From the NCBI GenBank assembly GCA_905250025.1, contig CAJNOJ010000349.1, positions 28,766-92,765 on the forward strand: a stretch of 64,000 nucleotides of DNA. Reading direction: 5' to 3'. Below the pieces are notes generated by a model that was given only the letters and a program-made list of their open reading frames with translations, did not search any database and was not told where the DNA came from. A program made the translations under genes and the position numbers. Shown here one piece after another: positions 18,818-64,000 of the stretch; position 1 is the first letter of the stretch; every line of letters begins with the position of its first letter. The stretch comes from Adineta ricciae. Lineage: Eukaryota; Rotifera; Eurotatoria; Adinetida; Adinetidae.

Positions 18818-20142
18818 CCAACGACGATCACGCATTTTCGATTAATCCAGAATTTTAACGAAAATTTGATATGAATAAAGATTAATAATAAATAAAAGTA
18901 ACAGAATGATTAACATACACTATGAATCCTTTCATTTATACAAACATTTTCCCAAGTAAATTCATTTCCATCTGAAGTGTTTTATCTATCACATTTGAGT
19001 GCAGAGATTTGAATACAACGCAGGACAACGCTGCTTGTTTGGTTCGACTGAGAAGCAACATTGATTATTTCTAGTGTATTATAAATAAATTTTGATAATC
19101 TGAATCTTTCTTTTACAACAAGTCTTCGTGATGATTGCCACTTAGTATTGATTTTTCTTGCTGCACTTTATTCGAGAATCTAACAAACATTTTTTTTTCA
19201 CTCCAAATATTTCGCTGGTGCGTGATCGTCAGCTGTAAAAAACAAAAAAACCGACGCATATGCACAAAAAACGAGTTTACTACTGAAATCGAGCTGTGTG
19301 GCCGACCGCCTTCAAAATAATCTTTCATATTTCTCTCAATCGAGTTCGGAGATCTTGAGGGTGAAACTCACCCAAATCATTGTTGAAGCCCTTGGCATCA
19401 TAAGGAAACCATTCTAGATGTGCTGGACATTGTGAAATGTAGGAATGCATTCAAAAATAGCTCCTATTCTAATGAAATATGTGCTTTAATTGAACATGGT
19501 TAAAGTACCAATTATGTGTTACGGATAACAGGTTTGAAGCATTCTACCACTGTAACAAACAGAAAATATGAGCGCAATATTAGAATCAATCAGTGTCTTC
19601 CAATCGTTTATACAGTTCACTATGTGACTCGCTGTGCCTTTTATAGAGCCCATCGGGTCCAACAACTTTTGGACCCGGATTCTAACTCTGATTATCTAGA
19701 AGTTTAAAATAAATCTTCTACCGGGTACACATCCGTCACAATCTTAAACTGGTGACTGGAGTTAAGCTCACACTGATGCTTGCAACAGAAGTCCGAGCTT
19801 TCAATGTCTATATGCGCTCTCATCCAAATTATATTAATGAACATCACAATTACGTGATTATTTTCTTCTATGGTATTCATTAACTGTAAACTACTGCAAA
19901 CACACGTTCAATAAATACAAAGACAAAAAAGTCAAAGCCATGATCATTGTGTAGTTTTGGTATACATTAGGTGATCATATTTCTACGAGCTTTTGTCACG
20001 CTACTAGTTTTTTCCTCGTTCTATATAATCCTCCATTACTTATTCGTTATTATTCTAATAAAGACAACATCGTTTTTCTCATTCTCATATAGTTAATCCT
20101 TTGAGATAAACTAGTCAGAATGCGGTGTCTGTATTGAAGACA
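18818..20142. other. Intergenic
   Basis: 1.3 kb with no recognised gene. A short upstream open frame (ATG at 20120, five codons) precedes the receptor gene. Confidence 0.45.
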
Positions 20143-23100: not shown

Positions 23101-24882
23101 CAATCGATTTGTGTATGTCCATTGTTTCGACATGGACCAAGTTGTACCTTAATGACATCACAATGTTCAATGAATCTTTGTCAAAATCAGGGTCAATGCA
23201 TTGAAAATGATAATGAAAATGCATTTGGAAGAAAATATACTTGTGTTTGCAACGACAAATATTATGGTTTAAATTGTGAATATAAAAAATGGCAATTAGA
23301 TGTTGCACTTGAAGATATTGAGATTTCATCTTATCTCGTTGCACATTTTTATGCTATTTCAAATCATTCAGAACCACAAAAAACAATAATTCTTCGAAAA
23401 TTAACACTCTTTCAACATATCGTAACATTTCATATTTCAATTCCATTCCATTTAGTTTTTATTCAAATCAATCATTATGATTTTTACCTTATTTATCTTC
23501 AACATTTATCATTCAGATATACATTAACACAATTGAATTCTAAACAACAATGTCATCCGGTTAGCAATTATCTCAATTCAACAATATTAGAATTACATGA
23601 ATATGAACGAATACCTTATTTTCATCGCATTTGTTTACAACATCGAAATTTGATTTGTTTTATTGATGCAATGTATTTATGTTTGTGTACAAATGATAAT
23701 CATGCAAATTGTTTACGATTTCAACGAGAAATGTACACTTCTGAAGATCATTTTCGATGTTCATTAAATGATCGATATTGTTTAAATGAAGGTCAATGTT
23801 ATCAAGATCATGTTTATTGTCCATCGACAAAGATTTGTTCATGTCCAAGTTGTTTTTTTGGTCAACAATGTCAATTCTATGCGAAAGGTCTCGGTTCAAC
23901 ATTAGATGAAATCTTAGGATATGAATTTCTAGCAAAGAAAAATCTTGCTTCTCAACCATTTTCCATTCGATTAAGTGCTGGAATAACTTTGATTATTTTT
24001 AGTTTTGGAATAATCAATGTTATCTTATCATACATTGCATTTTCACAACCGAAAGCACGTGAAGTTGGTTGTGGATTATATTTATTAGCATTATCGATGA
24101 CTTCATTATCGACGATGATATTTTTCGTATTGAAATTTTCATTATTATATCTTTCCTATCAAGATGTGTCCAATGTGGAATTGATTCTTACAATCAATTG
24201 TCGATGTATCGAGATTTTATTAAAATTATCGTTATTTATTGGTAATTGGTTGAATGCTTCTATTGCAATTGAACGAAGTTATACAGCTGTTCATGGTTTA
24301 TCATTCAGTAAAAGAAGTCGACAAGTTGCAAGAAAAGTTATTCCATGGGTATTTATTTGTAATATTACAATTCTCATTCCTCAAATGATTTATCTTCATG
24401 TATTTGAAGATGAAATGGAAGGAAGAAGTTGGTGTGTAATTCATTATAAATCGTGGTTAAAGAAATATACACTTGGAATGACATTTTTCAATTATTTTGG
24501 ACCATTATGTATTCAAATTCTATCAACATTCGTCATTATTATAGCCACAGCTCATCAACGATTATCATTACATGAGGATCAAAGTTTTCGAGATCAGCTG
24601 AAAATAAAGTTCATTAAATACAAACAACTTGTGATTAGTCCAATTATTATAACAATATTAACATTACCTCATTTGATCATTTCAGTTATATTAGATTGTC
24701 GAAAATCATCTGATTTATTTAGCTTTTTTCTCAATGGTTATTTTCTTTCATTTATTCCTGCAGCATCGATTTTTATCATATATGTCATCCCATCTCCACT
24801 TTATCGAGAACAATTCAATCTGCGTATGAAATATTTTCAACGACGAATCAGTCAATATTTGGAAAAGAGAAAATGTCGATAG
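20143..24882 (+). CDS. Giant LDLa/EGF-domain seven-transmembrane receptor
   Basis: One uninterrupted exon of 1579 residues from the ATG at 20143. The upstream in-frame GTG at 20125 is less likely because the ATG starts a signal peptide (VFVLLFLRLTLTTC). The ectodomain has several LDL-receptor class A modules, e.g. near 20718-20832 (WCLDWREICDGIVDCFDEGTDE) and 20856-20970, and others near 21900-21990 and 22130-22240 with the acidic SDE/GxDE calcium signature. EGF-like modules follow (YECLCSASYYGNQC; CSMNLCQNQGQC...YTCVCNDKYYGLNCE; ICSCPSCFFGQQCQ). From about 23950 seven hydrophobic segments make a GPCR domain: GCGLYLLALSM in TM2, an IERSY motif after TM3, and a C-terminal VIPSPLYREQF. The domain is paralogous to the minus-strand receptor at 47.3-48.8 kb. 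Probable role: sensing an extracellular protein or lipid ligand. Confidence 0.85.
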   Translation: MIRIEGREIFQVFVLLFLRLTLTTCRLNMDHIQEMAGSNVLEYDCLDYHRQYRTKLANQDLFDITTELISFCFRPMYQSNETPETFVHPLARQLSFKSVSDMGITPEQLLSWSIPMVVVERYQLYLSNYKMALMNEHYYNCTPPQFGMRCQYSFGSRLKQGMSFEDLVDATFRSKQSYAESEDGVTLSAPIPCYVLIACHRNGIEWCLDWREICDGIVDCFDEGTDEEHCFALEMNKCKIDEYQCHNGMCIAEDLWDGGEGDADCLDRSDEILDASYLNKCYQDVSFRCEQHSCRPSNRLFACGDSDCVTSFKPCHSGRHHLLINSTLRQGDLNEECWVTMACLTKLIKQINGKSCDMWLANDSASTHLAACHSFFQFPTVAVYSSHVRFYYSNVQYRDNLTNNFVPDYICYNRELCEFSSFHPGPHNNLTCVNEWNEWPEWYNLVENPWSLLVRWVEENFRFCFVSKHFLINAMTDSNYFNLYQCLNSSKMIPFRRIKDNLNDCIEGDDEYHQNSCSLNDRHRIRCGEANECWSSIYKKFACESSNERSKEILPFQSFCDGIRQYFYHNLNRQIRFDESDCDIDSLCDNIYSRCDGFWACDDGRDEWNCDQLPCPLGSHPCISRHNYTVSCLPGDRVNDSVDDCLGATDEQEDCIVFDSNNGLTRLRCLDSNECLGSSQFCNGIVECPRYGDDEKFCEHQRFTCHQSASHERNQLEQILCSFNEDNKHRIRFFSVHTSSPYPASTQPYNHNDHAHLGETKNDKGQEDLLQVNTNQTFTKEDQRWSHYCNRGIMIEKQLNNLSSYECLCSASYYGNQCQYQNQRVSLSLKLSSTNRYETYAIVILLVDEQNNQITTFTQFQYIAKQSCTMKWHGVLLYPTRPNNILTNYSVRIDVIEKNSLIYIGHWYYSIPFMFLPVNQLGIALNLSSNVIVRKAKCDENCLDGKQECIEYINMKNKSFCRWITAESNENKCSSQSLFIGLTNNRQSICVCPLFRHGPSCTLMTSQCSMNLCQNQGQCIENDNENAFGRKYTCVCNDKYYGLNCEYKKWQLDVALEDIEISSYLVAHFYAISNHSEPQKTIILRKLTLFQHIVTFHISIPFHLVFIQINHYDFYLIYLQHLSFRYTLTQLNSKQQCHPVSNYLNSTILELHEYERIPYFHRICLQHRNLICFIDAMYLCLCTNDNHANCLRFQREMYTSEDHFRCSLNDRYCLNEGQCYQDHVYCPSTKICSCPSCFFGQQCQFYAKGLGSTLDEILGYEFLAKKNLASQPFSIRLSAGITLIIFSFGIINVILSYIAFSQPKAREVGCGLYLLALSMTSLSTMIFFVLKFSLLYLSYQDVSNVELILTINCRCIEILLKLSLFIGNWLNASIAIERSYTAVHGLSFSKRSRQVARKVIPWVFICNITILIPQMIYLHVFEDEMEGRSWCVIHYKSWLKKYTLGMTFFNYFGPLCIQILSTFVIIIATAHQRLSLHEDQSFRDQLKIKFIKYKQLVISPIIITILTLPHLIISVILDCRKSSDLFSFFLNGYFLSFIPAASIFIIYVIPSPLYREQFNLRMKYFQRRISQYLEKRKCR

Positions 24883-33497: not shown

Positions 33498-34842
33498 TTA
33501 ACGAAGATTTATATGTAAACATCGAAACATTCGCTCTTTCCAATATTGACGAACTTCATGATTATAAATAAATAAATCCAATATTTGAATAATGATAGTA
33601 AATACTGGTAGTGTTTGCAATAGATAGTACACCCATAGTGGCATGTAGAAATTGGCAATGACTGTGGCAATATAAGCTGGTCCCCATCCAAAGATAAATA
33701 CAAAAAATAAAAAGAAGATATGTTTGAGTAATTTGATATCTCGACGATTTTGCTGATGATCTGTATTAGTCGTAGTTACGATAATTGTTGTGATCTCGCG
33801 AACACGCCGACTGGATGATCGAACAGCTGCCAAAATAAGCCCATTAAAAATGATATAAATAATCACAGGAATTATGACTATAATTAAGAGATAGTATAAG
33901 AAATTCCAGCTGAACAACGGTAACCCATTTTTACATCCCTGCATAAAATAAAATAGAGAACAAATAGTTTTGTTTGCATCGATTAGAGGTGGCACATAGA
34001 GTAAATATCTACTTTTTCATATATATCAATTTCCATAGTATAGCTTGACATAGTCGAAGATGTATCTTATTGTCATTTTGTAGAACTCGTCTTCTATTAT
34101 AATTTAGCTCATGATATCGTCTCTTGTTATTGTTAACAGACAAGGATATGAGAGATTTATCAAACAGAAAAGAATATTCACTATACTAAAGTAAATAGTA
34201 AATATTATGTATATCAATCATATCTTTTTTCATAGACAATATTAAGAGACGCTGCCACGGTCCATGCCATTCTCTAGGCAAATTTGAGTTCAACAACACG
34301 ACAGAACACGACATTCGCTCAAATGCATCAGATTATTGTCCAAAATGGTTTACATGAAAAAGTAAATATTTACTCTATGTGCCGCTACTAGTACTGATTT
34401 TTACTTGTAAACTATCAAGAATGATTGGAATTGACACAGATGAACTGAATATCCATTGTAAAATTATGGTTGAATATATCCAATATTTACGTTTGAAAAG
34501 TCGCTTCGTTGGAAAACGTATGGTCAAATATCGACTAATGGCAATAAGTGTTAGAGAGTAAATAAGTAAACAATTTAGATATTGTCCAGCAGATAGTACA
34601 AAAGTACAAAAGGCAGTATTTCCATAGTATGGGTAAAAGTGGAATACACTAGATGCTCTGTACAACGCCCAATAAATGACGCATATAAAACAAATTGAAC
34701 AGAAATTAGCTGTCAAAATATTATTTGCAGTATGAAAACGTTCGATGAAAATGATTGTGAGAAGATAAATCAATGACATTGGAATGGTAAGAGTGAGAAT
34801 GATAGCTTGTACGGCATAGATAACGGATATTGTGTCCACCAT
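33498..34842 (-). pseudogene. GPCR gene split by a MITE
   Basis: On the minus strand, 34842-34375 encodes TM1-TM4 of a rhodopsin-like receptor: an N-terminal TM1, YGNTAFCTFVLSAGQYLNCL with the TM3 Cys, and AISRYL replacing DRY. 33995-33498 encodes extracellular loop 2 with Cys (KTICSLFYFM) and TM5-TM7 (FFVFIFGWGPAYIA for TM6; LQTLPVFTIIIQILDLFIYN for TM7; then a basic tail). The two halves complement each other and together would make a full receptor of about 310 residues. Between them lies a 393-bp terminal-inverted-repeat element whose first bases supply an in-frame TAG. The receptor is therefore interrupted unless the insert is spliced out, for which I see no clear sites. TM1-TM4 are repeated at 43741-44208. 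Confidence 0.72.
33991..34383. mobile_element. 393-bp MITE with 30-bp terminal inverted repeats
   Basis: The left terminus is GGCACATAGAGTAAATAT... (33991-34020). The right terminus (34354-34383) is its reverse complement, with one mismatch in 30. The interior has no coding capacity. A short inner palindrome AGTAAATATTTACT lies within each terminus. It sits in extracellular loop 2 of the split GPCR. The right-hand ~165 bp are also present in the duplicated segment at 43578, so insertion preceded that duplication. A target-site duplication is not evident. Confidence 0.7.
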
Positions 34843-35545
34843 GTTCTTCTAGTTTGTGCAATAAATTTGACGCAGAAAAAATGATGTAGATTCAAAGCGG
34901 TTTCTTCCTACACTTCTTATTCATTAGTTTAATGAAAAAGAATATAGTTTGATTTTGCACATTGATGCATCTAACATGAAACGTAGTTTAATGAAAGCAT
35001 TTTCCCATCATTTGTCTTAATATAGTAATTGAGACGATCGTGAGAGAGAAAAAAATGTCCCGACAGAACTAAGTATTATTAATTTATTTTAATTAAGCGC
35101 ATCATGCCGGTATGCAGCACTTGATCATCTTGTCTTTCATCATGAAAAAGGAAAGAACAAATACTACATGCGCGCAGTGTTTGTAGACTATAGTATCACC
35201 ATAATCTATTCGATTCAGTGTGAAAGTCTTCTTCATTTACAATCGGGTTGAAAAAATTTGTTTCTAGATGTGTGACATTATCATGAAAACAGAACAGTTT
35301 GCTTGTTGATGCGCTGAGACAAAGAAAAATGATAACGATCTATCACTTCATATCGACGTCGTACGGTCTAGTTTTTCATCAAAAGAGGATTTCACAAAGT
35401 CTTGTCCAAGTAATTTAACTGGCAAAAACCGTGAACCATTAAAATAATAAATTGAACATAAAAAAATCGGAAAACCAAAAGTTCCAGTCGTATTTCATGT
35501 TTCTTGATGATCTTGAACTTGTTGACGATTGAGAAATATCGCTAT
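34207..35545 (+). repeat. Segment duplicated at 43578-44906, copy 1
   Basis: About 1.33 kb nearly identical in the same orientation to 43578-44906: part of the MITE, GPCR TM1-TM4, the intergenic region, and the 3' tail of a LURP-one/scramblase-like gene (minus strand, about 35386-35545). At 35546 homology stops and a dispersed repeat begins. In this copy the LURP-one-like gene is therefore cut off by the repeat. Confidence 0.8.
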
Positions 35546-43577: not shown

Positions 43578-44906
43578 ATTAATCATATCTTTTTTTCATA
43601 AAAAATATTAAAAGACGCTGCCACGGCCTATGCCATTCTCTAGGCAAATTTGAGTTAAACAACACGACAGAATACGACATTCGCTCAAATGCATCAGATT
43701 ATTGCCCAAAATGGTTTACATGAAAAAGTAAATATTTACTCTATGTGCTGCTACTAGTACTGATTTTTACTTGTAAAGTATCAAGAATGATTGGAATTGA
43801 CACACATGAACTGAATATCCATTGTACAATTATGGTTGAATATATCCAATATTTACGTTTGAAAAGGCGCTTCTTTGGAAAACGTATGGTCAAATATCGA
43901 CTAATGGCAATAAGTGTTAGAGAATAAATAAGTAAACAATTTAGATATTGTCCAGCAGAGAGTACAAAAGTACAAAAGGCAGTATTTCCATAGTATGGGT
44001 AAAAGTGGAATACACTAGATGCTCTGTACAAAGCCCAATAAATGACACATATAGAACAAATTGAACAGAAATTAGCTGTCAAAATATTATTTGCAGTATG
44101 AAAACGTTTGATGAAAATGATTGTGAGAAGATAAATCAATGACATTGGAATGATAAGAGTGAGAATGATAGCTTGTACGGCAAAGATAATAGATATTGTG
44201 TCCATCATGTTCTTCTAGTTTGTGCAATAAATTTGACACAGAAAAAATGATGTAGATTCAAAGCGGTTTCTTCCTACACTTTTTATTCATTAGTTTAATG
44301 AAAAAGAATTATATTTTAATTTTACACGTTGTCGCATCTAACATGAAAGGTACTTTAATGAAGCATTTTTCCATCATTTGTCTTAATATAGTAATTGTGA
44401 CGATCATGAGAGAAAAAAAAATGTCCCGACAGAACTAAGTATTATTAATTTTTTTTAATGAAGCGCATCATGCCGGTATGCAGCACTTGATCATCTTGTC
44501 TTTCATCATGAAAAGGAAAGAACAAATACTACATACGTGCAGTGTTTGTAGACTATAGTATCACCATAATTTATTCGATTCAGTGTGAAAGTCTTCTTCA
44601 TTTACAATCGGGTTGAAAAAATTTGTTTCTAGATGTGAGACATTATCATGAAAACAGAACAGTTAGCTTGTTGATGCGCTGAGACAAAGAAGAATGATAA
44701 CGATCTATCACTTCATATCGACGTCGTACGGTCTAGTTTTTCATCAAAAGAGGATTTCACAAAGTCTTGTCCAAGTAATTTAATTGGCAAAAACCGTGAA
44801 CCATTAAAATAATAAATTGAACATAAAAAAATCGGAAAACCAAAAGTTCCAGTCGTATTTCATGTTTCTTGATGATCTTGAACTTGTTGACGATTGAGAA
44901 ATATCG
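43578..44906 (+). repeat. Second copy of the 34.2-35.5 kb segment
   Basis: 1329 bp bounded on both sides by single Ns (43577, 44907). Near-identical to 34207-35545 with scattered substitutions and short indels. The last ~155 bp (44751-44906) reappear directly after the N as 44908-45061. The simplest reading is a separate contig whose right end overlaps the next contig without being merged. It may be a true paralogue or an allele of the first locus. Confidence 0.8.
43741..44208 (-). pseudogene. GPCR fragment, TM1-TM4 copy
   Basis: 155 residues, about 95% identical to the TM1-TM4 half at 34375-34842 (MMDTISIIFAVQAI... ending KISTSSST then TAG from the MITE end). The TM5-TM7 half is absent because the segment ends at the N join. 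It is interrupted by the same element as copy 1, so probably not functional. Confidence 0.7.
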
Positions 44907-44958
44907 NGATTTCACAAAGTCTTGTCCAAGTAATTTAATTGGCAAAAACCGTGAACCA

Positions 44959-45294
44959 TTAAAATAATAAATTGAACATAAAAAAATCGGAAAACCAAAA
45001 GTTCCAGTCGTATTTCATGTTTCTTGATGATCTTGAACTTGTTGACGATTGAGAAATATCGTGATCTCTAGCTGCTAATGCTAAAAGATACACTGGATGA
45101 GGTACTTGCTTCGAAAATATTTCTAAATCGTATCTATTCGTCCAATTAAATGGAATCCGACATCGACGAAATTCTGCTAATATTGTCTCTTGATTTTGAT
45201 AATGAAATTTCGTTGTTAATGAAAAGAGATTAGTCTCCATAACTATATTTTCACCGTTCCATTCGATGATGTATTCGTCACCAAAAATTTCCAT
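44959..45294 (-). CDS. LURP-one/scramblase-like (tubby C-terminal fold) fragment
   Basis: A 111-residue frame whose first 80 residues resemble the C-terminal half of LURP-one-related/phospholipid-scramblase-like proteins. It has a short strand pattern EYIIEWNGENIVMETNLFSL, then ILAEFRRCRIPFNWTNRYDL and a hydrophobic helix HPVYLLALAARDH. The N-terminal half is not seen in frame; TAA lies seven codons upstream of the ATG. Upstream text in the +1 frame (TIEFEVDGNFW) continues the pattern, suggesting a frameshift near 45285. The last ~30 residues lie in the 155-bp overlap repeated on both sides of the N at 44907. Assignment by pattern only. Confidence 0.4.
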   Translation of the reverse strand: MEIFGDEYIIEWNGENIVMETNLFSLTTKFHYQNQETILAEFRRCRIPFNWTNRYDLEIFSKQVPHPVYLLALAARDHDISQSSTSSRSSRNMKYDWNFWFSDFFMFNLLF

Positions 45295-49298: not shown

Positions 49299-49600
49299 AA
49301 TGTACTTAGGTGTATCCAAAAGTAATGTCGTCTCTATTTTATTTCCTAATTAAAAGGGCAAAAGAAAATTATTTTCCTACACAAAGATAGAGAAAATGAA
49401 GCTCTATTTTTCTATGCTATTTGATTCTCCTTCAGTTAATACCATAGTAATAAGTTTTCGATGTGAATTATGTTTGTGTAAAACTTAAGTCACGAAAAAA
49501 TCATTGTGAATGCTCGTATTTCTAATACATTATATTAAAAATCGGTATATACCAAAAGATGGCGCGTGAAAAGCTCTACAAATTACACAGGACAGTTTAT
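49299..49600 (-). repeat. Dispersed ~290-bp repeat, copy B (inverted), plus partial copy
   Basis: Reverse-complement counterpart of 35546-35838. A fragment of the same family in the opposite direction (about 49690-49760, TTGTAGAGCCTTTCACGCTGCATCTTCTGGT) lies next to the 100-N gap at 49777-49876. The gap may therefore hide an inverted pair of these repeats. Confidence 0.6.
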
Positions 49601-49876
49601 TTTAATTATGTGCTTTTCGTTTTCAAAGTTCCATGAAAGTTGATTACGCAGAATTTTTCTTTTTTTGAAAACAAAATGCACAGAATAAAAACAAACTGTT
49701 CTTTGTAAATTGTAGAGCCTTTCACGCTGCATCTTCTGGTACGCTTAATCTTTGATGAAAAAATACTAAATGAAAANNNNNNNNNNNNNNNNNNNNNNNN
49801 NNNNNNNNNNNNNNNNNNNNNNNNNNNNNNNNNNNNNNNNNNNNNNNNNNNNNNNNNNNNNNNNNNNNNNNNNNNN

Positions 49877-50889
49877 TTCGAAAGCCATAATTCAAAGTAG
49901 AACAAAATTTGAATTATTCCGTTCTATCAAGATGTTAGGCTAGTTTGTACTATCATTGAGGGAGAAAACTGGTTCTTTATTGCTCAGTCGAGGATCAAGT
50001 GAGTCGCAATGACGAACGTTACTTGTGGAACTAGTTCCATAATGGAAACCGGGAAATTCTCGATTACGTTCATTACGGCAGTTTTAAAATAAAGCCCATA
50101 ATCGACCGTATGTCCATTTTGGAATGTTGGACTAGTTTCGAGAAAGAACAATGAATCATACATTCACAAAGACAGTAGCTCTTAAAACTCTTACAATGCT
50201 TTTGAAAATAGTTTTGACTGCTAGAAAGCACAAATCTCATCACCCTTCACGGCGCACGCAATGAAAGTTTTGTTTATTGAGTTTAGAATAAGTGTTTCGA
50301 CCAGTAAACGTTTTTAGAAAATGTTGTTTTTGATTTTTGGGAAATTCATCTGACATTCGAAAACATGTAATTCCCGAGAAAACGCTATAACGCGTCATAT
50401 GCTACTTTTAGTATGTCCGAAGTAGAGTATATTTATGGAGTTCTGTTTGAAGCATGTTGTTCTTTTTCGCAACGAACAAAGAGGATATGATTCGAAAATA
50501 CCGATTAACAATATACACACAACAGATTTTTGCTGAAAAATCTAAGTTCCGCAGAAATTATCACATTATTTCATGTGAAGTTTCTGGAAAACATAGTAGA
50601 ACATTCTAACTATAAATAATATACTGTTTAAATATATATTTGTCCGAGAAACAATGGTCCATAAAAGAAGGAAACAATTAAATTGAATGAATGAGAAAGA
50701 ATTGGTATTATTCATGAAAATTTGTCGATAAAATATAGGAGAAGAAAAAGGAGGCGTTTTTCCTGTTTATTATTGCCGGAGAAAGTAAGATAAACTTCAT
50801 TTTATATCGAAGAAAATATTGTATCTCATTTAATGCATAAAGCTTTTATTCATTACTTTGCATCTCAAGTATCGAAATACTAAGCGATC
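49877..50889. other. Intergenic
   Basis: No gene seen. Around 49983-50030 (CAGTCGAGGATCAAGTGAGTCG, then CGAACGTTACTTGTGG) it resembles 838-880 (CAGTCGAGGGCTTAGCGAGTCG, then CGAGCGTTACTTGTATTG), suggesting pieces of a shared repeat. Confidence 0.4.
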
Positions 50890-50959
50890 ATGCCGACTGT
50901 ATTTCGCTTTAGTATCACATTATGGTTGACAATACTAACATTAACATACTCGAATGCAA
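50890..50959 (+). CDS. Candidate signal-peptide first exon of the propeller/REJ gene
   Basis: ATG-initiated 23 codons encode a textbook signal peptide (MPTVFRFSITLWLTILTLTY, then SNA), then A|GTAAGA, a strong donor in phase 1. The acceptor at 55881/55882 (TTTCAAATAG|ATCAATGT) needs exactly phase 1, and joining would give SNA-NQCGLTFGV, a plausible cleavage site. The intron would be 4.9 kb, long for this genome, and I found no convincing exons in between. The alternative is an unrelated small gene. Confidence 0.4.
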
Positions 50960-53900
50960 GTAAGACTATGTTGTTTTATATTTATTGAAAAAGTATCTTC
51001 GAAAATCATGAAGCGTCTTTGAGATTTCGAATTCCCAAAAAGCTCAAGGATATACAGCTCACATCAGAAACTCGGTATCATATTTGAGTATTTCTTATTC
51101 GAATACGTTCAAAAACTTATCGTTGCCCTCTAGATAGTTGAGTTAAGTACAAAATAAAATTCTCCGTCGAATGGTATAAGTTTCCATAGAAGTATTGGGC
51201 AAAAGCTGCGATTTTCATCCGAAATATTAGATTCATCACTCGGTTCATCCGGTATTTATTGCTCATATTTTCTTAGGGCACGTGAAGATTTCAGATGTGT
51301 TTTGCATATTCGTATTTTTTCGGATGAGTTAGCGAGGGAAAAGGGCGGTTTACAAAGATACACTGAACGCAAAAGAAGGCCTATGATCGGGTAAAACTTA
51401 CATGTATTGGGCCATGTTGCTGTATTTAAACCTACGCTAACCCGAGATCTTTCTAACTTTATCAGTTTAAATATTACATTTGGAGATAACTGTGAGTTTA
51501 GTTATAGAGTTAGTATATCAGTTTTGGATTTGTTAAACTATGTAGCTTAGGCGAAGATAATTTGGATGTCTAACTTGAATTTACTACTTCGATCAAACGC
51601 TCAAAACTATTTGAGTCTGTGGTGAGTGCATTTCTAAATGTGATGTTTTTTATCAGACTGCTGAATGTAGAATCTGTGTAGGTTAGAATTGATTAACATA
51701 TCTAAAGAAGTTTATCAGTTAAAATTGCGCATTCTAGTTTTAGCGCTTTGCGCACATTATAAGGTCAGTCGGGTTCATCTTTCGTTAAAGCCAAATGTTA
51801 TCTATTGAATGGCTATTCTGACTGGTTCTCTGTCGATCGGAAAGAAGAAACAGGAGATTTTACTTTATTTCAAAATGTTTCGCAAAAGTTTCTGGATAGA
51901 TCATAACGGCTAGTCACTCTAGCAGGAAAGGAGGATTCGCTCAGTCGATCCATCGCGCAATTTATTTTGACTATTTTCTTGATTAAAGTGAGCGCAGATT
52001 TACATTCCATTAACAAAGATTATTTGAGGGAGAACAAAAGAATGCATATGTAAGCCAAAAAATTTTCTGTATAAGATGTATTAGGGGCATTTCAAGATGA
52101 TATAGTGAGCTGGAGTTACAGACGAGAGTAAAATTAAAACTGGCAGACAATCATTTAAATTAAGATTCAGAGCTTCTCTCCGGACAAAGGCGGGTATTCA
52201 AAAGTAAATGTTTCTGTTTCAGAAATGATTTAAAGATCAAGAATACGGAAGGAAATTTCCACTTTTGAAAAACTGCCAGTTGTGTGAAACTGATTAGTTT
52301 TTAAAACTATTACATGTGCTGCAATAATTCCGAATTTGAAAGAAAAGTGCCAAATGGTGAATGGAATTCTCATTGCTTATTGAAATTAAAACACAGCATT
52401 TTCATTCCTTTAAAGATTTAATTATGAGCAGGGCCAGCGCTTGCGACATATCCCAGCGTATCAATCTTCCAAACAGCCTGAAAAATTTTCCCAGAAAAAA
52501 CGATAAATATCTATAGGTCCGCTTTTCCGCTTAAAACGTTTTTCAAAGTCCATATAGAATCCAGCGGTACAGCATGAACTTCAAAATTTGGCTTTTGCGC
52601 CAGCTATGATAAATTTCCTATCGCTGTATGCAAAATTTAACAAGGATTCCGATCATGTGATTGAAATTTCAACAGTCTAATATTCAAAAACCTATAAAAA
52701 GTCCACCTTTTTGCAGTCGAGCCTGGTGGAACCGGGCAAAGTATTCATTCGGAATTTTTAGTATTAATACTACCTTCTACGGGTAGAATTTATCCGACAC
52801 TTAACATAGTGTGATATATGTAACTTTATGTAGGTAGGACACACACTCATACATCGAAAACAGCACGTATTTATGTGGAGTGAGTAGAAGAATCATGGAC
52901 GAAGTGCATGACACATAGTAAAATACTTTCTTAGGATCTCATAGTTCTAGTTCTGTGTCGTCGGACTCTATTCTGAACACACTAGTCCCTTAAAGAACTC
53001 CAAATGAAATCATAAACAAAAAAGTTGAGTAATGTCATCATACAAATGCCCTGGATGGTATCCGTTTAAAAACCGACAACTATATATCCGAGAACCGGAG
53101 GAATTTGAGTGAATATGGTGAATACCGGGCGAATCACGACTTGGTCTCAATGCGATCCCTTCAGGAGGAAGTGAGAAAATTGCCTAATATGGCGGTTCTC
53201 GAAGTCTGGAAACCTGAGTGAAGGAAACTTAGATTGGTGCGAAAGTTCCAACGGTTAAAGGTGAGAAGACGCTTTACCAACTAGCCGGGCCTTCCCCACC
53301 ACCCTCATGTTTCGCAAGAAATGGTGGTGGGTACCGGGTAATGAGATCGACTGATGAAGTCAATTTGTTTATCTTATTGGGTATCGAGACGTTTAGCTTT
53401 GGGTACCCGGCGTAATGATATTATGACAGTTATGAAGAAGTTATATATATATGCATAGTGTACATGCACACACATGGAACAGCATCTATGTCAGAAAAGA
53501 ATATTTATGTCAATTCCTTGTATGCACCGTAACTCATAGCAGACTGGTTAAAGGGAAATATCTGACTTCGGCATTCCAGCGTATTCTCGCACGTTTTCTC
53601 ATAGTCTTAGCCATTCCTTCGCATTTCCATGCATTCGAAATGTTCTGTATTGAGACTGACTCTATTCTCGTGATATTCGAAACCAGCATTAACATCTGCG
53701 GTGATCTAAATATTCCACTAGTTAGCTTCATGCTATGTGCACTCATCAACGGGTAAATAGCCCAATGAGATCTGTTATCAGTTATTTGTAAATTCGAGCA
53801 TTTCTTTTAGTCATTTTTCTGTTAGTTTTAAGGAACATATTTTGAACGAGAAAGCAAAATTGCACCATTTTATATGTAAAAATATTAGGCTCGAGACTTT

Positions 53901-55881
53901 ATTTCTTCCTTCTAAAATATTAAAGTGCTAAAAACCTGTCTTTATACAGCTTTCATTCAAATAACACCACTATTGCCATTTTAGGTTATCTTTGAGGTTT
54001 CTTTTCGATGGAAATGAAGAACTGCATTGATTTTTATATATACATATTTTTTAGTTTAAGGTTTCGTTTGATGTCCCATGAGGGAATAGTAGGTCCAGAA
54101 CTATAGTTTCTCAGACGTTTAAATTGAGTTATGAACAAACAGTCATTCTATTCCGCTATAGTGAACAATACGGAATTACATAGTTTCAAAAGCTTATTCA
54201 GTTACGTAATTCTGAGTAATTCTGTGACGGAATCACAACTTTCACTAGATAAACATTCATTATCATTCAATAGGCATAACCTTATAACTAGCGCTATCCA
54301 GACGAGTTTCGTGTTATTCAGTTGTTTTCTTCTATCAAACAAGTTAGTTCTTTTCTCCCTGCACTCGAAAAGATTAATACTATTGTCATAAAATATTTCC
54401 ATTAACTCACTAAGAGTATTATCTATTATCTGTAATTATTTATCATTTTGACGATTATTTGACAAATACCAGGTAAAACTAAACCTTTGATTCTGGAGGT
54501 TTTCTTCAAAATTAAGTTGTTTATAAAAACGAAAATAAACGTTCATTTAACTAAGAATTATAAACAGAAGTATTTTAGATTATGATAACTTTTAAAACAG
54601 TCAGTTACACAGGCCAACATTATATTGTTTATATTAATATCTTGTATATTTGGATGCCTTTTTCATGTTGTGTTGTATGCGGACGTGAATGAAATTTTCC
54701 TCGAGTAGTTGAAGGTACTAATAATGGAAAGCGTCTAGCAAATAAACAGAGTGACGAATCAAGTGTTGGCTTTCCAACAGGAATTTGTTTTTGGTAACTA
54801 TATTTTATCAATTCAAGAGTCAATACATAGAGTTCAAACTACTATATTAATGATGTTTCAATACTTTCGACAGTTTTAAAACACGGTTAATTTTCTCTAC
54901 AAACAAAAAGTTTATTTTTCAATATTTTTCCACCTACTCTTGTTTGATCAGATATGTAAATAATTCTATATATATATATGGGTGTTTCTACCAGAAATCT
55001 CCAGCCCTTCCGGGAAATTTTTCGGAATTTAATGAAACTTTCAGTATATGTTAAGTTCTCGATGCTGATTATTTTGGTAGTAAATAGTTGCGATTTTACT
55101 TTTGTCTTCCCTGATATATAGTGTTCATCCTCAAATTGATTTTTCTCTGTGAAAACCAAATCAAATCTAATAACCAATATGATATTCTGAATCTTCGTGA
55201 AAATTTGCATCATCAGCATCTGAACTTTGGACCACCGCATGGTTCTTTAGAGGATTCAGAGAATAATTCTGGGTTTTCATCCAAAGTGGAATGAATGAGA
55301 AATTCTGCAACGGCAGTTTAGTAGGCCTGGTCATGCCTTTTAATGTGTACTAGTTTGTTGTTTTCCCGACTTTAACCTCGAGGAAAGCAAACAGTCCAAC
55401 CAAGATAAATTGATTTTTCGTAAAAAATTTTCATCTACACTATCTCTAAAATGTAATGCCGTTATTTGAAAACCACCTACAGTCCCATTGTTATCATCCG
55501 TAGCTCATAAAGTTAAATATTTCGATTGTTTTTCACCTGAAAAATTTTCACTGCCAAAGTTACTACCACTCAAAGGTCTACAAATCCTAAAAGTTTCATT
55601 AAAATTGGACGAGACCGCCGGATGGGCCTGGAGATTCTTGGTGAATACACCCATATACATAAACCATGCTCGGCGTCAAAGGGTGAAACAATTTATCGGG
55701 GGAAGATGAGAATGAAGAGAGACACGCATGTTACAATATTTTTAGATTCAAATTTTAGTTAGATACTGCTCTCAGCATTCTTTCTATATCAACAATTGTT
55801 CATTTTTCTAAAATGGCTTTTCATATCTTTCAAACAAATTCAACTTGCCTGTGTTAAGAATATTTTTTTCCTTTCAAATAG
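50960..55881. other. 4.9-kb stretch without confirmed exons
   Basis: It is possibly one long intron. No domain-bearing frame is seen. The frame at 53451-53756 is not recognised. A diverged inverted pair lies at 54972-55043 and 55588-55662. A G/C-richer patch at 53090-53410 includes a repeated GGTGGTGGGTACCGGGTAA / GGGTACCCGGCGTAATG motif. Confidence 0.4.
54972..55662. repeat. Diverged inverted pair, 75 bp arms
   Basis: 54972-55043 (minus) and 55588-55662 (plus) share AAGTTTCATTAAA, GG(G)CTGGAGATT and AACACCCATATA-like blocks. Both lie in open frames that read WRFLVETPIYI and WRFLVNTPIYI. Several differences are synonymous. No protein family is recognised. Confidence 0.5.
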
Positions 55882-58800
55882 ATCAATGTGGACTAACGTT
55901 TGGTGTTCAAGCAATTTATCCAACGGAATCAAATCCACAATCATTGGCAGCAATCAGTGTCAATCATGACGAGTATACTGACATTGTTGTAGCAAATTCA
56001 GGTTCGAACAGCATCAGCATTTTTCTCAATTTGGGCAACAGTTCGTTTGTCAAATATGCAACGTATCCAGTTGGTTCTAATCCAGTTTCTGTAACAGCTG
56101 CAGACGTCAACAATGACAATAAATCGGATATTATTGTAGCGAGCAACGGTGCTGTTACCATCGGTGTACTTCTCAGCCAAGGTAACAGTACATTTGCTGC
56201 TCAGATCAGCTATTCAACTGTTCATCCGCCGAACTCTGTGGTGACTTCTGACATTAATGTTGACGGCGCCCTTGACATTATTATTATACACTACAGTCAA
56301 AACAGTATGGGGGTTCTCCTCAATAGAGGTAATGGTACATTTGCTGCTGAGCAAACATATTCAACTGGTCCTGCTCCATTGTATGCAGCAGCAGCTGACG
56401 TCAATAATGACGGGAAGCCCGATGTCATTGTTCCAAACTCTGGTACATCAAACATTGGAGTGTTTTTGAATGTAGGGAACGGTACATTTGGTAGTCAGAC
56501 AGTCTATTATACCGGCTACTATCCAAAATTCATTGCAACAGCTGATGTCAATAGTGATGGTAAAATCGATGTTATCGTGCCAAGGACGAGTGTAAATGGT
56601 GTCAGCGTTTTACTTAACGCCGGTGGTGGGTCATTCCCTACTGCGATAACTTATCCAACTGGTGTGTATCCTTTTTTTGCGGCGACAACCGATTTTAATC
56701 ATGACGGCAAACCTGATATTGTTGTGGCAAACACTAATTCGTACAGTGTTAGTGTTCTTTTGAACATGGGCAATGGGTCATTTAATACTCAAACCACATA
56801 TCCAACTGTTTCTAACTCACGTCATCTAGTAGTTTTTGATATCAATAATGATAACGAAACTGATATGGTTGTAACAAATCTCAATACGAATAACATTGTT
56901 GTTCTTCTGAACGCTGGTAATAATGCATTAACTGTTCCATCAACTTATTCCACTGCATCTAGTCCAGTATCTGTAACAGCAGCTGATATTAATAATGATA
57001 ATCAAACTGACGTTATTGTAGCAAATAGAGACACGAACAATATCGGTGTTTTTCTTAACAAAGATAACGGTACATTTTCTGTTCAAAAGACTTACGCAAC
57101 TGACACTAGTCCCAAATCTGTGACGGCAAGCGATGTTAATGACGATAAGGAACTCGATATTATTGTAGCTAATTCTGGTTCGAACAGCATCAGCATTTTT
57201 CTCAATTTGGGCAATGGCTCATTTAACAGTAAAAGAACGTATTCAGTTGGTTCTAATCCAGTTTCTGTAACAGCTGCAGACGTCAACAATGACAGTAAAT
57301 CGGATCTTATTGTAGCAAACAACGGTGCAAATAGCATCAGTATTCTTTTGAATGAAGGAAACGGTACATTTGCTAGTCAAACGACTTATGCAACAGATTC
57401 ACAGCCGAATTCCGTCACAGCGGGTGATATTAACGGTGATGGCAAAATTGATATTATTGTTACAAACGAAAATGCAAGCAATGTAGGTGTTTTTTTAAAC
57501 AAGGGTAACGGCACATTTGCTAATCAAACGGCTTATACAGTTGGTTCTCAACCGATGTCTGTCGTAGTGACTGACGTTAATAGTGATGGCACACTCGACA
57601 TAGTTGTTGGAAATTTTGGTTCCAATACCATCAGTGTTCTTGTCAATACAGGCAACGGTACCTTCAGTACTCAAACGACATACTCAACTGGTTTCGGACC
57701 ATTGTCTTTAACAGCAGCTGATATGAACTATGATAACAGAATCGATGTTATTTTGGTGAACAGCCTTGCCAATAGTATCAGTGTTCTGTACAACTTAGGT
57801 AACGGTACGTTTCTTAGCGAAGTAGTGTATTCAACATGCTCTTGGCCCTCGTCTTTGGCAATAGCCGATGTTACCGGTGATGGCAGGCCAGAGATTATTA
57901 CTACACATCAAGGCGTCAACAGCATTGGTGTCTTTCCATCACTACCGCAGATTAGTAAGTTTTATCAGATGTAATTGCAATCGTAATAGGAGTAAAAACA
58001 GGTGAAGCTATAGACTGACTTATCGGCTCAAAAGTAATTTTAGTTATAATATTTATTACGCAGCGCCTTTACAGTTTCTTACTTTGTATCCTTTCTTCAT
58101 CTCCTTTGATGTGATATTTTCTTCAAACACATATCATCTCCATTATTGATCATTTTCCCGATTCTTTCGATGTTATTAATAAATTGCATAGTTCTTCTTT
58201 CTTCATCGTCGTCGTTCTCGTCTTATTTTTCTTCGCTTATAAGTATTGATATCGATCTTTTTCACGTTCTCTTATATGAATCAAAGAAAGAGAAGATAAG
58301 CTCTAACAATATTTAACCATGATTATAAGTATCGATTTTGACCATTGCTTTGAACTTTATTCCATTTTGATGTTTTTGAGCTAATTAAATTAAATTAAAA
58401 CTACAATCGTCCCGACTTGTTAATAAATCCGGCAGTATTTTTATAAAACGAATGATTTTTTCATATTCTCTATTTAACAAAATAAGAACTTTAAGATTTT
58501 TCTTTGGATACTTTTAAGCTTGTTCATGTGTGTTCTATCTTTTTTTTGTCAATGTATGACTAGCAATGACATAATAACGTACAATAATACATTAATATAT
58601 CCAATAGTGCTCTTAACTTTTAAAAAACAAATTTAAACCTACGCTAGTTTTTGGGCAAAGGACCATCTCTCTGCAGAAATATTGTTTGTTATAAGCGGTG
58701 AACGAAGGATTGTTTTTGGATCGGCTAACTGAAATCTGATGTTTAGTTTTTTAAATTCGTACTAAACAATAATTTGACTGTAATTTAGAAACCCTATTTC

Positions 58801-61800
58801 GACTAGAAAGAGTTAAGCTAATTCCACAGCCCGAGTGGCTTGTCTCTCTAATTCAGATTTAATTCTTACATTGATACCAAGAATAAAATACAACTTCTTC
58901 AACTTTGCCAATCATGAAAATATGAGCTGTAAAATAAATATAACTTTTAGCAGCGCCAACGTCTAATACACAGTCGACTGATGCAACAGTGACAAGTACT
59001 GCGCACGCGATTAGTTCAACAATGGTGACAACTTTAGAAACGTCAAGTAATAATCAAGGTACTAGATAAAGAATATATATACATGGATATTTATGAACAT
59101 TCAAATATAAATTGAATTTTTGCTTTTTCAGGATGTTCTTCTCCAACCGTAACAGTTATTCCAGAGACATCAACATTATTGTCACCAATACAATATTACC
59201 GAAGTGAAGATTTTTCTATCACATCAATAATTAAATTCAATTGTAATCAATCATTATCAACTAAAACTCAATGGAAAATAAAAATTTGTTATTCCGCATG
59301 TTCATATGAAATTCAATTAGATCCAGCTGTAAAGACAACATTTAGTGAGTTATATATACCTAAACGAACTCTTCCCTATGGATTATATGAGTTAAATTTA
59401 ACTGTAACAATGATGAATATTTCCCGTTTATTACGCACATCATCAGTTGTTTATATTCAAATAATTTCATCAGATATTATAGTAAATTTAATAAAATATG
59501 GAACATTAATGATTACACAAGGATTTGAAGAAGATCTTCAATTGAATCCAGGAAAATATTCTATTGATCCAGATGAAGAGACATTTAATAATTCTGTAAG
59601 TTTTCTAATAGAATGAAGATTGATGAAAAAATTTTTTTTTCATGAAATAGAATTGGAAATATAAATATTATTGTCGAATCTATGGCTTATATGAATATCC
59701 ACAATTAAATAATTCCTTATTAACAATTGATGACGTGAGAAATGATCCATTGAATCCTTCATGTTTATCAAATCGAACAGGATGGAGATTTGATAATAAA
59801 TTGAATTCATCCTTTACAATACTTTCTGATTCTCTTCAACCTAATCGAACATATCAATTTATGGTACAGATGGAAAATATTCGAAATTCATCAAATCAAG
59901 CGGTCGGTTATGTTTTTGTCAATGTCGTCAATGCTGATGCACAAATAATTCTTATTGGGTAAATATTCTCTTCTCTTTCGTTTCATTTTTCGACGAATAA
60001 ACGAGACATTTTTCATTCTCTTTAGTTGTGTCATTTCAACACTATGTCAACCAAATGTTGAGTATCAATTTATAAATCCAACAACACAAATGGCTTTATT
60101 TTCCGAATGTTTGCAAAATTGTACACTGATTGAAAATATCACATGGAATGTTTATTATGGTCGAAAAAATTCATCGTCAAATTTCACTGAATGGATTTTA
60201 TTTAATGAAACAGCATTTTATCAAAATATTTGGTTTTTTGGTAAAACAAAGGCCTTGATTTTTCAATGAAAATTTTCAATTGTTTGATTTAGGTACAAAT
60301 ACAAGTAATTTTACTGCAATAAATCAATTATTCTTGTCAAATCCACAGAATGAACTTTGGCGATGTGAAGTTGTGTATACATTTCCATCAGGTAGAAGTT
60401 CAAGTTCATTAAATTTTCTCATCAATCAACCGCCCAGCAATGGTTCATGTTCAATAAATCCTTCCAGTGGTACAACGAGTACCATTTTTCAAATTTCATG
60501 CTTCGATTGGTTCGATAACGATGGAATTCAAGATTATACTGTTTATAGTATGTGAAGATTATCTTAATCATTAAATAAAATCATTTTTCTTCTCGTTCGA
60601 TTAGGTTTGGCAACTAATCAACAAATAGAAATTTTCATTGCTTATTCAACAATACCAATATTTGAAATTCTATTACCAATGGGAAATAACCAAACATCAT
60701 CACTTAATTTAATAATTCATATTCGAGATAAATTAGAAGGTGTTACTAAAAAAAATATTTCATCCGTTTTTGTTCAATCAGATACAAAAGCAATAGATAA
60801 TTTAATGAATGATATTCAAAACTCATCAGAAATGATAACCGCGAATCCAATAATTCAATTACTTGAGAGTAAAAATCAAAATATTGTTGGACAAATATTA
60901 ATATCACTTTCATTACAATTGAATCAAATCAATAATGAATATTTAAATACAGCTATTTCAAGTAAATTTTAAAATTATTTATTTCAAGGAGAAAACAACG
61001 GATCCTTAATGCTGAAAGATCCTCTTGAAGCCTAAAATCTAACGAAAAGACGACCATTTTTTTCTCTCTTTATCTCACACTAACGTAATGAGTGTCATTG
61101 ATTTTCAAGATTTTCCTCGCTGCATCCGTCCACTGTAGATTCCTAATCCAGAAGGATCTTTTTTTTTCGTTGTTTTATTGTTTTTCTTTTAAATAGATGG
61201 AATACCAAAAACAATGATTTCAGTTTCACCATTAAATAGCATAACCAATGAACAAGTAAACGATTTTCTTATTAATTCTTCTTCATTGAGTATTTGATTT
61301 CAAATAAATAGTTATCATTATCATTTAATCAATCATCAATGAATATTTTTCAAGAAAAGTTAAATTTAAATTCAATTATTCGAGAATATTTAATCAAATA
61401 TTTCACACAAATTCCTTTAACAACATCAAATAGTGTTAAATTACAAGCATCAACATTAGCACAATTTACTCAATCAACAAATGAACTAACACGAATATCT
61501 TTAGTAAATTTCTATACAAAAAAAAATCTTTCTTCTAATCAAATATATCTTTGTAGACATTTTTATCTAATCGATGTTATCAAATAGCACAAAATTTACA
61601 TTCAAGAAGAACAATACTTGCATTTGAAGATGTTCAATTAACAGTTACGTATCTTCTACAATGTGCAACTAATCTACTTACCGTTAGTTATTTTTTATAC
61701 TAAATTGAATTGAAAATATCTGAGAAGAATATTTAGGCAGTTAATAGTCCATTACAACAACGAACACCTGTTTTAAATTTGGATTCATTACGTGCTACAG

Positions 61801-63121
61801 CATTTCCGGATGATTATGACACAAATTTAGATTTTCAATGGGCTAATCTTAGTGAGTTTTTGATAAAGAGATAGGAGAGCGAGATTTCAAAATCTAATGG
61901 AAGTACGAAAATGAAATACTCTTCTGTACTTTCATCATATTCCCTCGTATCACTTCGTACATCGAGATACGAAGTCTCGCTTTCTCTTCCTTGAATTTTT
62001 ATGAATTATTCAAGACAAATCTAAATTATTCTTTGTAAAATTGTATAGAATTATTTGCTGATGGAAATGATTTCTCATGGGAAACAATTGAAAAAAATCG
62101 TGTTATTTATTTTCAAGAACAATTAGCAAATGAAATTCATGTTCAAATGACTGAAGTGATTTCATTGATAAGTTCGATAATAAATATTCATTTAAATATT
62201 GAACAGCAATTCAATATAAATACATCCGAAGTTTTCATGACATTAGAAAGTCGAACGAGTGAACATTTTTCAGAGAAATTTGTTCAACAAATTGGAAATA
62301 ATCAAATTCAACTTCCAAATCATTTTCAATCTTATTTAAATAATAATAACAAAGTTTTTATTCGAGTAAAATTTTCTTTCTTTTTTCTTCAAATTATGAT
62401 TTCTAATGAAATATTTTAGTTTCTTCTACAACCATTATCAATATTTGGAAATTCAAAAATTTCATCAAATACTAATCTTTCTCGAACTATTTCATTTTCT
62501 TTATTTAATATAAATCAAGAAGAAATTCCAATTCAAACAAATCTAAATGAAACAATTGAAATTTTCATTTCTCGTGATCCTAATTTAATAATTCCATCAA
62601 TGATTTTACAGAATGTAACATCGATGAATTCAACAATGCATCGTCTTCTTTTCGATCTTCATTATTTAAATATAACTACATCTCTTCCAATTTCAATTCA
62701 TTGGCAAATTCAACCAATTAATTCTTCAATTTCTTATTTATTTATTTATAAATTTGATCAAATTCCACAATTAAATAGTTCAATTAATCAAATTGATGGA
62801 TGGACAATTTTTTGTCCATCAAGTAAATTTTCTTTTATTATAATTTATTTATTCGTTTGATTTCATATAGATTTAACAAATGAAGGTATTTATGAATATT
62901 TTCTTAACAATCAACAAACAATTGATCATCAATCGATTGTTTATGGCATTCGAGAATTAAATTCTACAGAAATCAATGAACGATGTTCAAATTTTTCAAT
63001 GAATACACCTCCAATAACAAATCAACCATTTCATTTTACATTTGATTATCAATTAAGAATATTTACATCAGGTTGTTATTATCTGGATTCAAATAATCAA
63101 TGGCAAACAAATGGATTAATT
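55882..63121 (+). CDS. Double VCBS-propeller protein fused to polycystin-1-type REJ/GAIN
   Basis: Fourteen exons agree in phase: 55882-57954, 58951-59058, 59132-59595, 59651-59958, 60026-60240, 60293-60547, 60605-60961, 61197-61255, 61312-61503, 61557-61682, 61737-61851, 62049-62365, 62420-62822 and 62871-63121. They encode about 1750 residues and continue beyond the window. Exon 1 holds 14 FG-GAP/VCBS repeats of ~49 residues with calcium loops (DVNNDGKPD, DINGDGKID), i.e. 2x7, probably two seven-bladed propellers. Exon 2 is a Ser/Thr-rich linker with phase-1 ends. Exons 3-7 form a REJ module (RTLPYGLYELNLTV; GKYSIDPDEETFNNS; PPSNGSCSINPSSGTTST then FQISCFDWFD). Later exons look like a GAIN domain ending in TSGCYYLDSNNQWQTNGLI, just before the expected GPS. 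Polycystin-1 family: cleaved adhesion-type membrane receptor. TM/PLAT parts lie outside. Confidence 0.75.
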
Positions 63122-63349
63122 GTAAGTTGACTCTTATTTTTGTTAAAAATACAATAAAACCTTTCTGATATGAACTTTGTTGAAACCTAAGAAAATCGTT
63201 TAGTACATCGAGGCGATCATAGCAAAGGGAGCCAATAAAAAGTTAGTACATGTAACATTCAAATAGTTTTTATGAACAGATTTGAAAAAGTCATGAATAG
63301 TTTTTCGTTCGGATAACTGTTGATTTAAGTATATATATGTTGGGGGCAA
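63122..63349 (+). other. Start of intron of the REJ gene
   Basis: Begins with the donor GTAAGTTGAC. No exon is found before the window end, and the next coding part (GPS, TM1) should lie to the right. Confidence 0.5.
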
Positions 63350-64000
63350 AATTGAGATTTGGTCAAATTTAGAATTTGACCGGGCAAAACTAGAATTCCA
63401 ATTTTGACCAGGCAAAATTAGAATTTCAACTTAGACTAGAATTTTCTTGGGCAAAATTGGGATTTCAATTCTGCCCAGACAAAATTAGAATTCCAAATTA
63501 GACTAGAATTTTCTTGGGCAAACTTGGAATTCCAAGTCTGCCCAGACAAAACTGGGATCTCAAATTTTTCCAGCACTTTCCTTTGGGCAAACTTGAGATT
63601 CCAATTTTGACCGGACAAAATTAGAATGAACCAGAGAAAAGTTTAAAGAATCTAAAGAATTAAAGCAGAGTATATTAATAAATCAATTTATTAAACAATA
63701 TGGCTTTGTTTCGTTACACAATTAAAAAATCAGCACCTAAATTTAAATACCGATATTTTTACAACCACCACGTTTACAGTGACATTTTGGAATTGAATTC
63801 AAATGCGCACATTTCTATTTATAAGATTAGTCGGTACTGCCCATAGAATTGTATTTTTTTTTCTTTAGTTTTATTTCACTACACTTTTATTTAACCGCGT
63901 GGCTATTTATATTTTTCTCTGGTTCATTCTAATTTTGTCCGGTCAAAATTGGAATCTCAAGTTTGCCCAAAGGAAAGTGCTGGAAAAAATTTGAGATCCC
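63350..64000. mobile_element. Foldback element with 87/88-bp near-perfect inverted arms
   Basis: 63554-63640 is the reverse complement of 63913-64000, differing only by one T in a T-run; the spacer is 272 bp. The right arm meets the window edge, so the arms probably continue. Outside the left arm, 63350-63553 is built of related sub-repeats (TTGGGCAAA...TTGGAATTCCAA...TGCCC), two of them in tandem with a 67-bp period (63414 and 63481). The spacer has no gene. Interpreted as a foldback/MITE-type element inside an intron. Confidence 0.75.

Follow-up and report, generated by a model that had tools for sequence, protein, structure and literature searches.

Does a receptor body of the polycystin type carry a propeller head of the prokaryote type in a rotifer, or do the genes for two proteins lie next to each other? 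The question is raised by positions 50890-63121 of the forward strand in a 64,000-nt stretch of Adineta ricciae DNA (contig CAJNOJ010000349.1), the whole of which was analysed and is called the window below. The gene model for this interval, predicted from DNA alone, has 15 exons totalling 5,313 nt, which read as 1,771 codons with no stops when a predicted first exon is included. It is likely to be the 5' part of one gene, encoding a large secreted or cell-surface protein of the REJ family (PKD1-like), the head of which would consist of two seven-bladed VCBS propellers. One gene is favoured because the REJ half is without a good signal peptide exon, and because the other VCBS exon of the window shares its phase-1 start with this one. 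Judged from the sequence, this arrangement of domains is probably new to the REJ/PKD1 family.

Gene model and REJ body

The VCBS exon (55882-57954; 2,073 nt) holds 14 FG-GAP_3 repeats of 49 residues and has phase-1 boundaries on both sides. It is followed by intron 2 (57955-58950; 996 nt, GC 0.295, donor GTAAGT) and by a linker exon of uncertain ends (58951-59058; 108 nt, phase 1-1), in which 19 of the 36 residues are Ser, Thr or Pro. The linker may start at 58951 or 58954 and end at 59046 or 59058, and other versions exist, all of them open; a preliminary description of this DNA had given the same length and phase-1 boundaries. The REJ domain (PF02010) is spread over five exons (59132-59595, 59651-59958, 60026-60240, 60293-60547 and 60605-60961), after which come seven exons with no Pfam domain (61197-61255, 61312-61503, 61557-61682, 61737-61851, 62049-62365, 62420-62822 and 62871-63121). 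GT/AG is found at every junction between 55882 and 63121 and the reading frame is preserved throughout, as that description had stated, and the open frame now takes in exon 1, which is an addition to the earlier model. Introns 1 to 3 are all phase 1 by their predicted splice sites, and exon 1, the VCBS exon, the linker and the first REJ exon are mutually joinable in this phase. No Ns were found between 49877 and 64000, which means that the join contains no scaffolding gap. The gene runs beyond the end of the window, and no GPS, PLAT or channel is reached inside it. A minisatellite of about 67 bp occupies 63375-63627 and continues to 64000, within the intron that follows the final exon of the model; by eye, the window-end sequence looks like more of this minisatellite on the opposite strand.

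The proposed exon 1 (50890-50959) would provide the ATG and a signal peptide, MPTVFRFSITLWLTILTLTYSNA, with the phase-1 donor GTAAGACT. The donor, GTAAGA, has a U1-type score of 9, and a score of at least 9 is reached by 1.0% of the GTs on the plus strand of the window. Among the 52 phase-1 ATG exons in 49300-55881, it is the best donor of those listed with a hydropathy of at least 1.6. In a control with 100 shuffles, 7% contained an exon with a donor of 9 or more, although the hydropathy cut used there was 2.0, which does not match the 1.93 of exon 1. The junction with the VCBS exon would read ...YSNA-NQCGLTFG.... The proposed intron 1 is 4,922 nt long (50960-55881). An element of 691 bp lies within it at 54971-55661; its terminal inverted repeats are 37 nt long and 81% complementary, and it resembles a small DNA transposon.

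A REJ match (PF02010, E=4.5e-40) covers profile positions 3-446 of 452 and 476 residues of the 1,057-residue piece comprising the linker and the REJ exons. The REJ domain has about 600 residues, and its possession is what defines the REJ/PKD1 family (PMC1934368); the domain is near complete here, and the predicted protein is therefore a REJ-family member by this criterion. The matched stretch contains 12 cysteines, which may include the six conserved REJ cysteines. REJ and GAIN-like exons had both been described, and of these the REJ part stands, while no GAIN/GPS hit was obtained at E<=10 in the 1,057-residue piece or in its last 84 residues, in a search where the HMMER filters drop most matches above 0.1. 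The tail of the last exon, CYYLDSNNQWQTNGL, looks like the first half of a GPS and may begin one, the window ending at the point where the rest would follow. No Pfam match is seen in the roughly 512 residues downstream of the REJ match, of which the last seven exons encode about 488. Pfam lists no PKD repeat, and a sequence search of the PDB gave nothing at E<=1 for the linker-plus-REJ piece. A polycystin channel body is unproved, the membrane end lying beyond the window; family members have 11, six, one or two, or no transmembrane segments (PMC1934368). In human PKD1, force unfolds the REJ region step by step, and GPS cleavage depends on this region (PMC1934368); a REJ-GPS protein has been reported from a brown alga as well (PMC4700764).

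The propeller head

The VCBS exon matches FG-GAP_3 (PF13517) at E=1.1e-125, with 13 stretches passing individually. Its loop motif occurs 14 times at a spacing of exactly 49 residues, and the repeat number, the single exon and its coordinates are as first described. The pattern D-x-[NT]-x-D-x3-[DE] is fitted by 13 of the 14 loops, and DG is present at loop positions 5-6 in 7 of 14. Nonsynonymous divergence (dN) is lower than synonymous divergence (dS) in all 73 usable repeat pairs, with a median ratio of 0.37 (91 pairs, less 18 with saturated or undefined rates); for repeats 2 and 10, which form the youngest pair, dN/dS is near 1 (0.215/0.235). Repeats 1-2 and 9-10, within 55896-57371, are 77% identical as DNA, pointing to a later duplication or conversion inside the exon. 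When repeats are compared at shifts of 1 to 9, mean likeness is highest at shift 8 (0.497) and lowest at shift 7 (0.411). A plain doubling of a seven-blade unit gains no support from these values. Over 288 residues the first half of the exon is 51% identical to the second, in a register shifted by one blade.

The exon has two cysteines only, at residues 2 and 652. By eye, the single-propeller gene at 11369-12853 also has two in its VCBS exon, one directly ahead of the first strand and the other at the extreme end of the exon, which are the positions expected of a bond that closes the ring. An end cysteine of this kind is absent from the 14-repeat exon; because of this, it is proposed, by analogy, that residues 2 and 652 may form a bond across both propellers.

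AlphaFold was run on the second half of the exon (344 residues), with an alignment of 16 rows from the window and from bacterial loci; this half was chosen because a mixed full-length alignment placed most relatives there. The model is a seven-bladed propeller with one leading strand and seven strand sets (mean predicted local distance difference test score, pLDDT, 95.3; predicted template modelling score, pTM, 0.93). From this half, the only one modelled, we infer that the VCBS exon encodes a tandem pair of separate seven-bladed propellers. A run on the whole exon with no alignment gave a pLDDT of 35.8 and is uninformative on how the two propellers pack. Foldseek returned top template modelling (TM) scores of about 0.78 for the second-half model, for example with a KICSTOR chain; we take the top matches to be beta-propellers.

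In a profile search with the half propeller, a secreted esterase (3.8e-30), CRTAC1 (8e-22) and a fungal lectin (Lectin 2, 3.5e-16; presumably kin of PVL) all outrank integrin alpha-V (3.9e-11). The integrin Cage motif, in the form given in PMC3192720, has no matches in the 690 residues of the VCBS exon. By the Cage criterion the predicted head is VCBS-type and not integrin-type, and the "integrin-like" head of the preliminary description is not borne out. The exception is structural: the Foldseek TM score is higher for integrin alpha (0.67-0.68, 14% identity) than for PVL lectins and their kin (0.59-0.61, 20-22% identity).

Relatives were sought in viral and prokaryotic contig collections and in the PDB. 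The closest bacterial locus found, in a metagenome-assembled genome of Planctomycetaceae, is 41% identical over 345 residues (241 bits), and the other VCBS gene of the window, at 11369-12853, is similarly close, at 39% over 332 (224 bits). Among animal chains in the PDB, phmmer scores CRTAC1 highest, with 38 bits and 7e-09, bit scores being only roughly comparable across programs. Among 595 stretches of genome contigs there are at least 54 bacterial and archaeal VCBS loci; in viral contigs, 0 of 40 stretches are related to the VCBS exon and 0 of 6 to the linker-plus-REJ piece. In the published classification the VCBS supercluster is centred on a large prokaryotic group of VCBS propellers; PVL is peripheral, and integrin-like propellers belong to the outermost of the families linked to the core (PMC8023676). 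For one VCBS protein of Adineta vaga, PMC12220480 gives a best hit in bacteria (2.1e-06), in a row that bears no mark of horizontal gene transfer. These likenesses of the head fit a domain of prokaryote type, without showing transfer.

One gene or two

The REJ half requires an upstream start, because no in-frame Met precedes the REJ domain except Met 25 of the linker; the next is residue 130 of the linker-plus-REJ piece, inside the domain. Linker Met 25 opens no signal peptide. Between 57975 and 58950 there is a single phase-1 ATG exon of 14-70 codons, at 58170-58242 (MLLINCIVLLSSSSSFSSYFSSLI), and 23% of 300 shuffles hold an equal one. Were REJ a gene apart, this rival exon could hold its start; the phase-1 donor of the exon, GTATTG, is weak, with a U1-type score of 4, compared with 7 for the linker donor and 5-8 for the 12 donors of the REJ body. 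Splice sites were also ranked with a position matrix, for which 11 introns of the gene itself served as the training set, against the 3,306 GTs and 3,076 AGs of the plus strand. On this scale the donor of the VCBS exon is within the best 0.15% of GTs and its acceptor within the best 0.29% of AGs. Fifteen open phase 1-1 candidate exons of 45-300 nt can be drawn in 57976-59110, and the nine richest in GC are without exception versions of the linker. Within intron 2, GC stays below 0.43 in every 108-nt window (maximum 0.398); in presumed non-coding DNA, 6.2% of 5,656 overlapping windows of this size have a GC of at least 0.435, which makes the argument from linker GC a local one.

Several observations weigh against a single gene. 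The strongest step in GC content at third codon positions (GC3), from 0.323 to 0.12, has its best break at codon 740 of 1,771, with a log-likelihood ratio (LLR) of 53.9; every fifth codon was scanned, and 300 permutations gave a maximum of 8.3. The linker/REJ junction, at codon 750.3, is ten codons after the best break and within two log-likelihood units of it. The value of 53.9 is unmatched by 8 other coding stretches (maximum 23.8) or by 56 two-gene concatenations (maximum 29.4). The step of 23.8 is inside an intact single frame, so that such steps do occur within one gene here, 53.9 being extreme. The linker donor is poor by the position matrix, 65.5% of GTs being equal or better, and the donor of the rival exon at 58170-58242 nearly ties with it (68.5%). 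Neither the acceptor of the linker (31% of AGs) nor that of the first REJ exon (24%) stands out. The VCBS frame continues for only 6 codons beyond the donor, to a stop at 57972-57974, and intron 2, at 996 nt, far exceeds the introns of the REJ body (48-235 nt).

At fourfold sites, GC is found in 8 of 21 positions in the linker, 98 of 351 in the VCBS exon and 40 of 359 in the REJ part (linker vs REJ, p=0.002); the linker thus sides with the VCBS exon and not with REJ. The step suggests either that two sources were joined or that two genes abut. A fusion from two sources would explain the splice and start-codon facts together with the GC3 step, and two abutting genes would explain them less well. 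The intronless 1,590-codon frame at 20110-24882 (+) also has a GC3 step, from 0.325 to 0.176 near codon 784; it has an LDL-receptor class A match of 8.8e-05, below the cut-off, and by eye a seven-transmembrane (7TM) end.

A single locus may also have alternative forms: a soluble VCBS protein made by reading through the donor at 57955, the fused receptor, and a headless receptor in which the VCBS exon is skipped. This reading, which is compatible with the one-gene explanation, is possible though doubtful. Since the VCBS exon is symmetric (1-1), the frame would be kept in all these forms: exon 1, the VCBS exon, the linker and the first REJ exon all meet in phase 1, and the stop at 57972-57974 is in frame for the soluble form. 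Phase symmetry permits skipping, but it is no demonstration of it.

Two adjacent genes are unlikely. The first, starting at 50890, would encode a secreted VCBS protein and end at 57974 or, if it took in the linker, at a stop near 59068; the second would be an independent REJ gene, whose first exon would lie within 57975-59131, for example at 58170-58242. The sharp GC3 step and the stop 6 codons past the VCBS donor speak for this arrangement, as does an ATG exon of fitting phase that is short and hydrophobic and has a donor scoring near that of the linker by the position matrix; the other VCBS gene of the window, moreover, stops right after its propeller. However, the donor of that start exon is below those of the REJ body and the linker by U1-type score, and its like is found in nearly a quarter of the shuffles. 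A terminal exon would have no need of a donor, yet that of the VCBS exon ranks among the best in the window, and the open, high-GC linker, phase 1-1, suits both sides. If the first gene included the linker and ended near 59068 (a stop seen by eye), the REJ exons would be left without a start codon before the REJ domain. An assembly error or recent rearrangement, by which VCBS and REJ loci were adjoined by chance and are not co-expressed, is very improbable: the composition step, the transposon-like element in intron 1 and a broken VCBS region elsewhere in the window would agree with it, but there is no N in 49877-64000, frames are intact on both sides and phase-1 splice sites flank the junction.

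The second VCBS gene (11369-12853, +) reads as a membrane-anchor (transmembrane) exon, a 168-nt exon of phase 1-1 in which 37 of 56 residues are Ser, Thr or Pro, and a VCBS exon with seven repeats. Its first intron would require a GC donor, and that part is less sure. The VCBS exon starts in phase 1 just before TQC and ends in SC-stop; the 14-repeat exon starts just before QC, likewise in phase 1. The shared phase-1 starts and the similar linkers support a cassette used with different partners. Tentatively, a prokaryote-type VCBS double propeller could have been captured by an animal lineage and retained in the form of a phase-1 exon cassette on different bodies; these would be a type II membrane stalk, in the gene at 11369-12853, and a REJ/PKD1-type body, and, equally tentatively, exon shuffling would in this way supply animal receptors with new recognition heads of foreign origin. 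A third VCBS region, at 7150-9289 (-), has stops and frame changes and is probably a pseudogene. The 7tm_1 profile gave three hits in the ten window proteins scanned, one of them above the cut-off. FG-GAP and 7TM families are listed as expanded in the bdelloid Adineta vaga (PMC3846280), and the content of the window (VCBS, 7tm_1) fits this. Near-identical 7TM-like fragments are seen by eye at 34375-34848 and 43741-44214 (-), about 9 kb apart; the one that was scanned matches 7tm_1 at 1.8e-4, below the cut-off. A tandem pair of 155 bp, 99% matching, lies at 44753-45065.

Proposed function and known systems

If one gene is accepted, transcripts would run from 50890 through 63121 into a 3' part beyond the window. 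The signal peptide, propellers and linker would have come as a unit from a VCBS gene and been placed before a REJ gene, the head being joined to the REJ body via phase-1 introns; a single-unit origin is proposed because the composition step falls at the linker/REJ junction. The shuffled head on a REJ body of the preliminary description thus survives in part: VCBS lies upstream of REJ in one open frame with symmetric phase-1 exons, and it is the integrin character that is lost. The signal peptide would lead to secretion, and the propellers, rigidified by metal in loops of the DxNxDG type, might bind a glycan or matrix ligand, a glycan being guessed at because of the likeness to lectins and the lectin domains of some SpREJ proteins. 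The linker, which by its composition may be O-glycosylated, would space the propellers from the REJ stalk. A pull or binding event could then be relayed through REJ to a membrane part that, as in most known relatives, may comprise a GPS, a PLAT domain and 1-11 transmembrane segments.

REJ/PKD1 proteins are regarded as sensors, few of which have a known ligand. The functions of most SpREJ proteins are likewise unknown (PMC1934368). A head with metal-type loops, if confirmed, would be a soluble, foldable domain for a ligand search, and the head of a REJ/PKD1 protein would be exchangeable for a propeller. Should the organism be an asexual bdelloid, this REJ protein would have no role in sperm-egg recognition, and its use would become a sharp question. 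The status of a receptor is not yet proven, and no gap or broken frame is seen at the join. What would be most surprising, in a probable new combination within a known family, is the prokaryote-type head.

Compared with the REJ/PKD1 family (SpREJ1-10, human PKD1, PKDREJ and PKD1L1-3), the predicted protein has a near-complete REJ domain in its presumed ectodomain. Accessory domains in that family include C-type lectin, EGF, SUEL, WSC and PKD repeats (PMC1934368); the head here has 14 VCBS repeats, whereas no FG-GAP/VCBS head is named in the relevant part of that paper. No report of REJ combined with FG-GAP/VCBS came up in searches of an open-access library, and protein databases may well contain it. 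The PVL-type fungal lectins and CRTAC1 resemble the head in fold and profile matches, but the TM scores with PVL-type lectins are moderate (0.59-0.61) and below those of integrin alpha. CRTAC1 and PVL are not known to have a REJ body. The integrin alpha propeller shares seven blades, Ca-type loops, the alpha-V match of 3.9e-11 and a TM score of 0.67-0.68; in contrast, the head here is without the Cage motif and has metal-type loops in nearly every blade, where integrins are described with three or four sites (PMC3192720). With the VCBS-core propellers (PF13517, a large prokaryotic group; PMC8023676) the head shares a strong PF13517 match, FG-GAP_3 repeats with a D-rich, metal-type loop in each and, in the second-half model, seven blades. 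It differs from these in being spliced, in an apparently animal gene, as a phase 1-1 exon upstream of REJ. As in phase-1 exon shuffling, this symmetric exon is predicted to lie between phase-1 introns, directly after a signal peptide.

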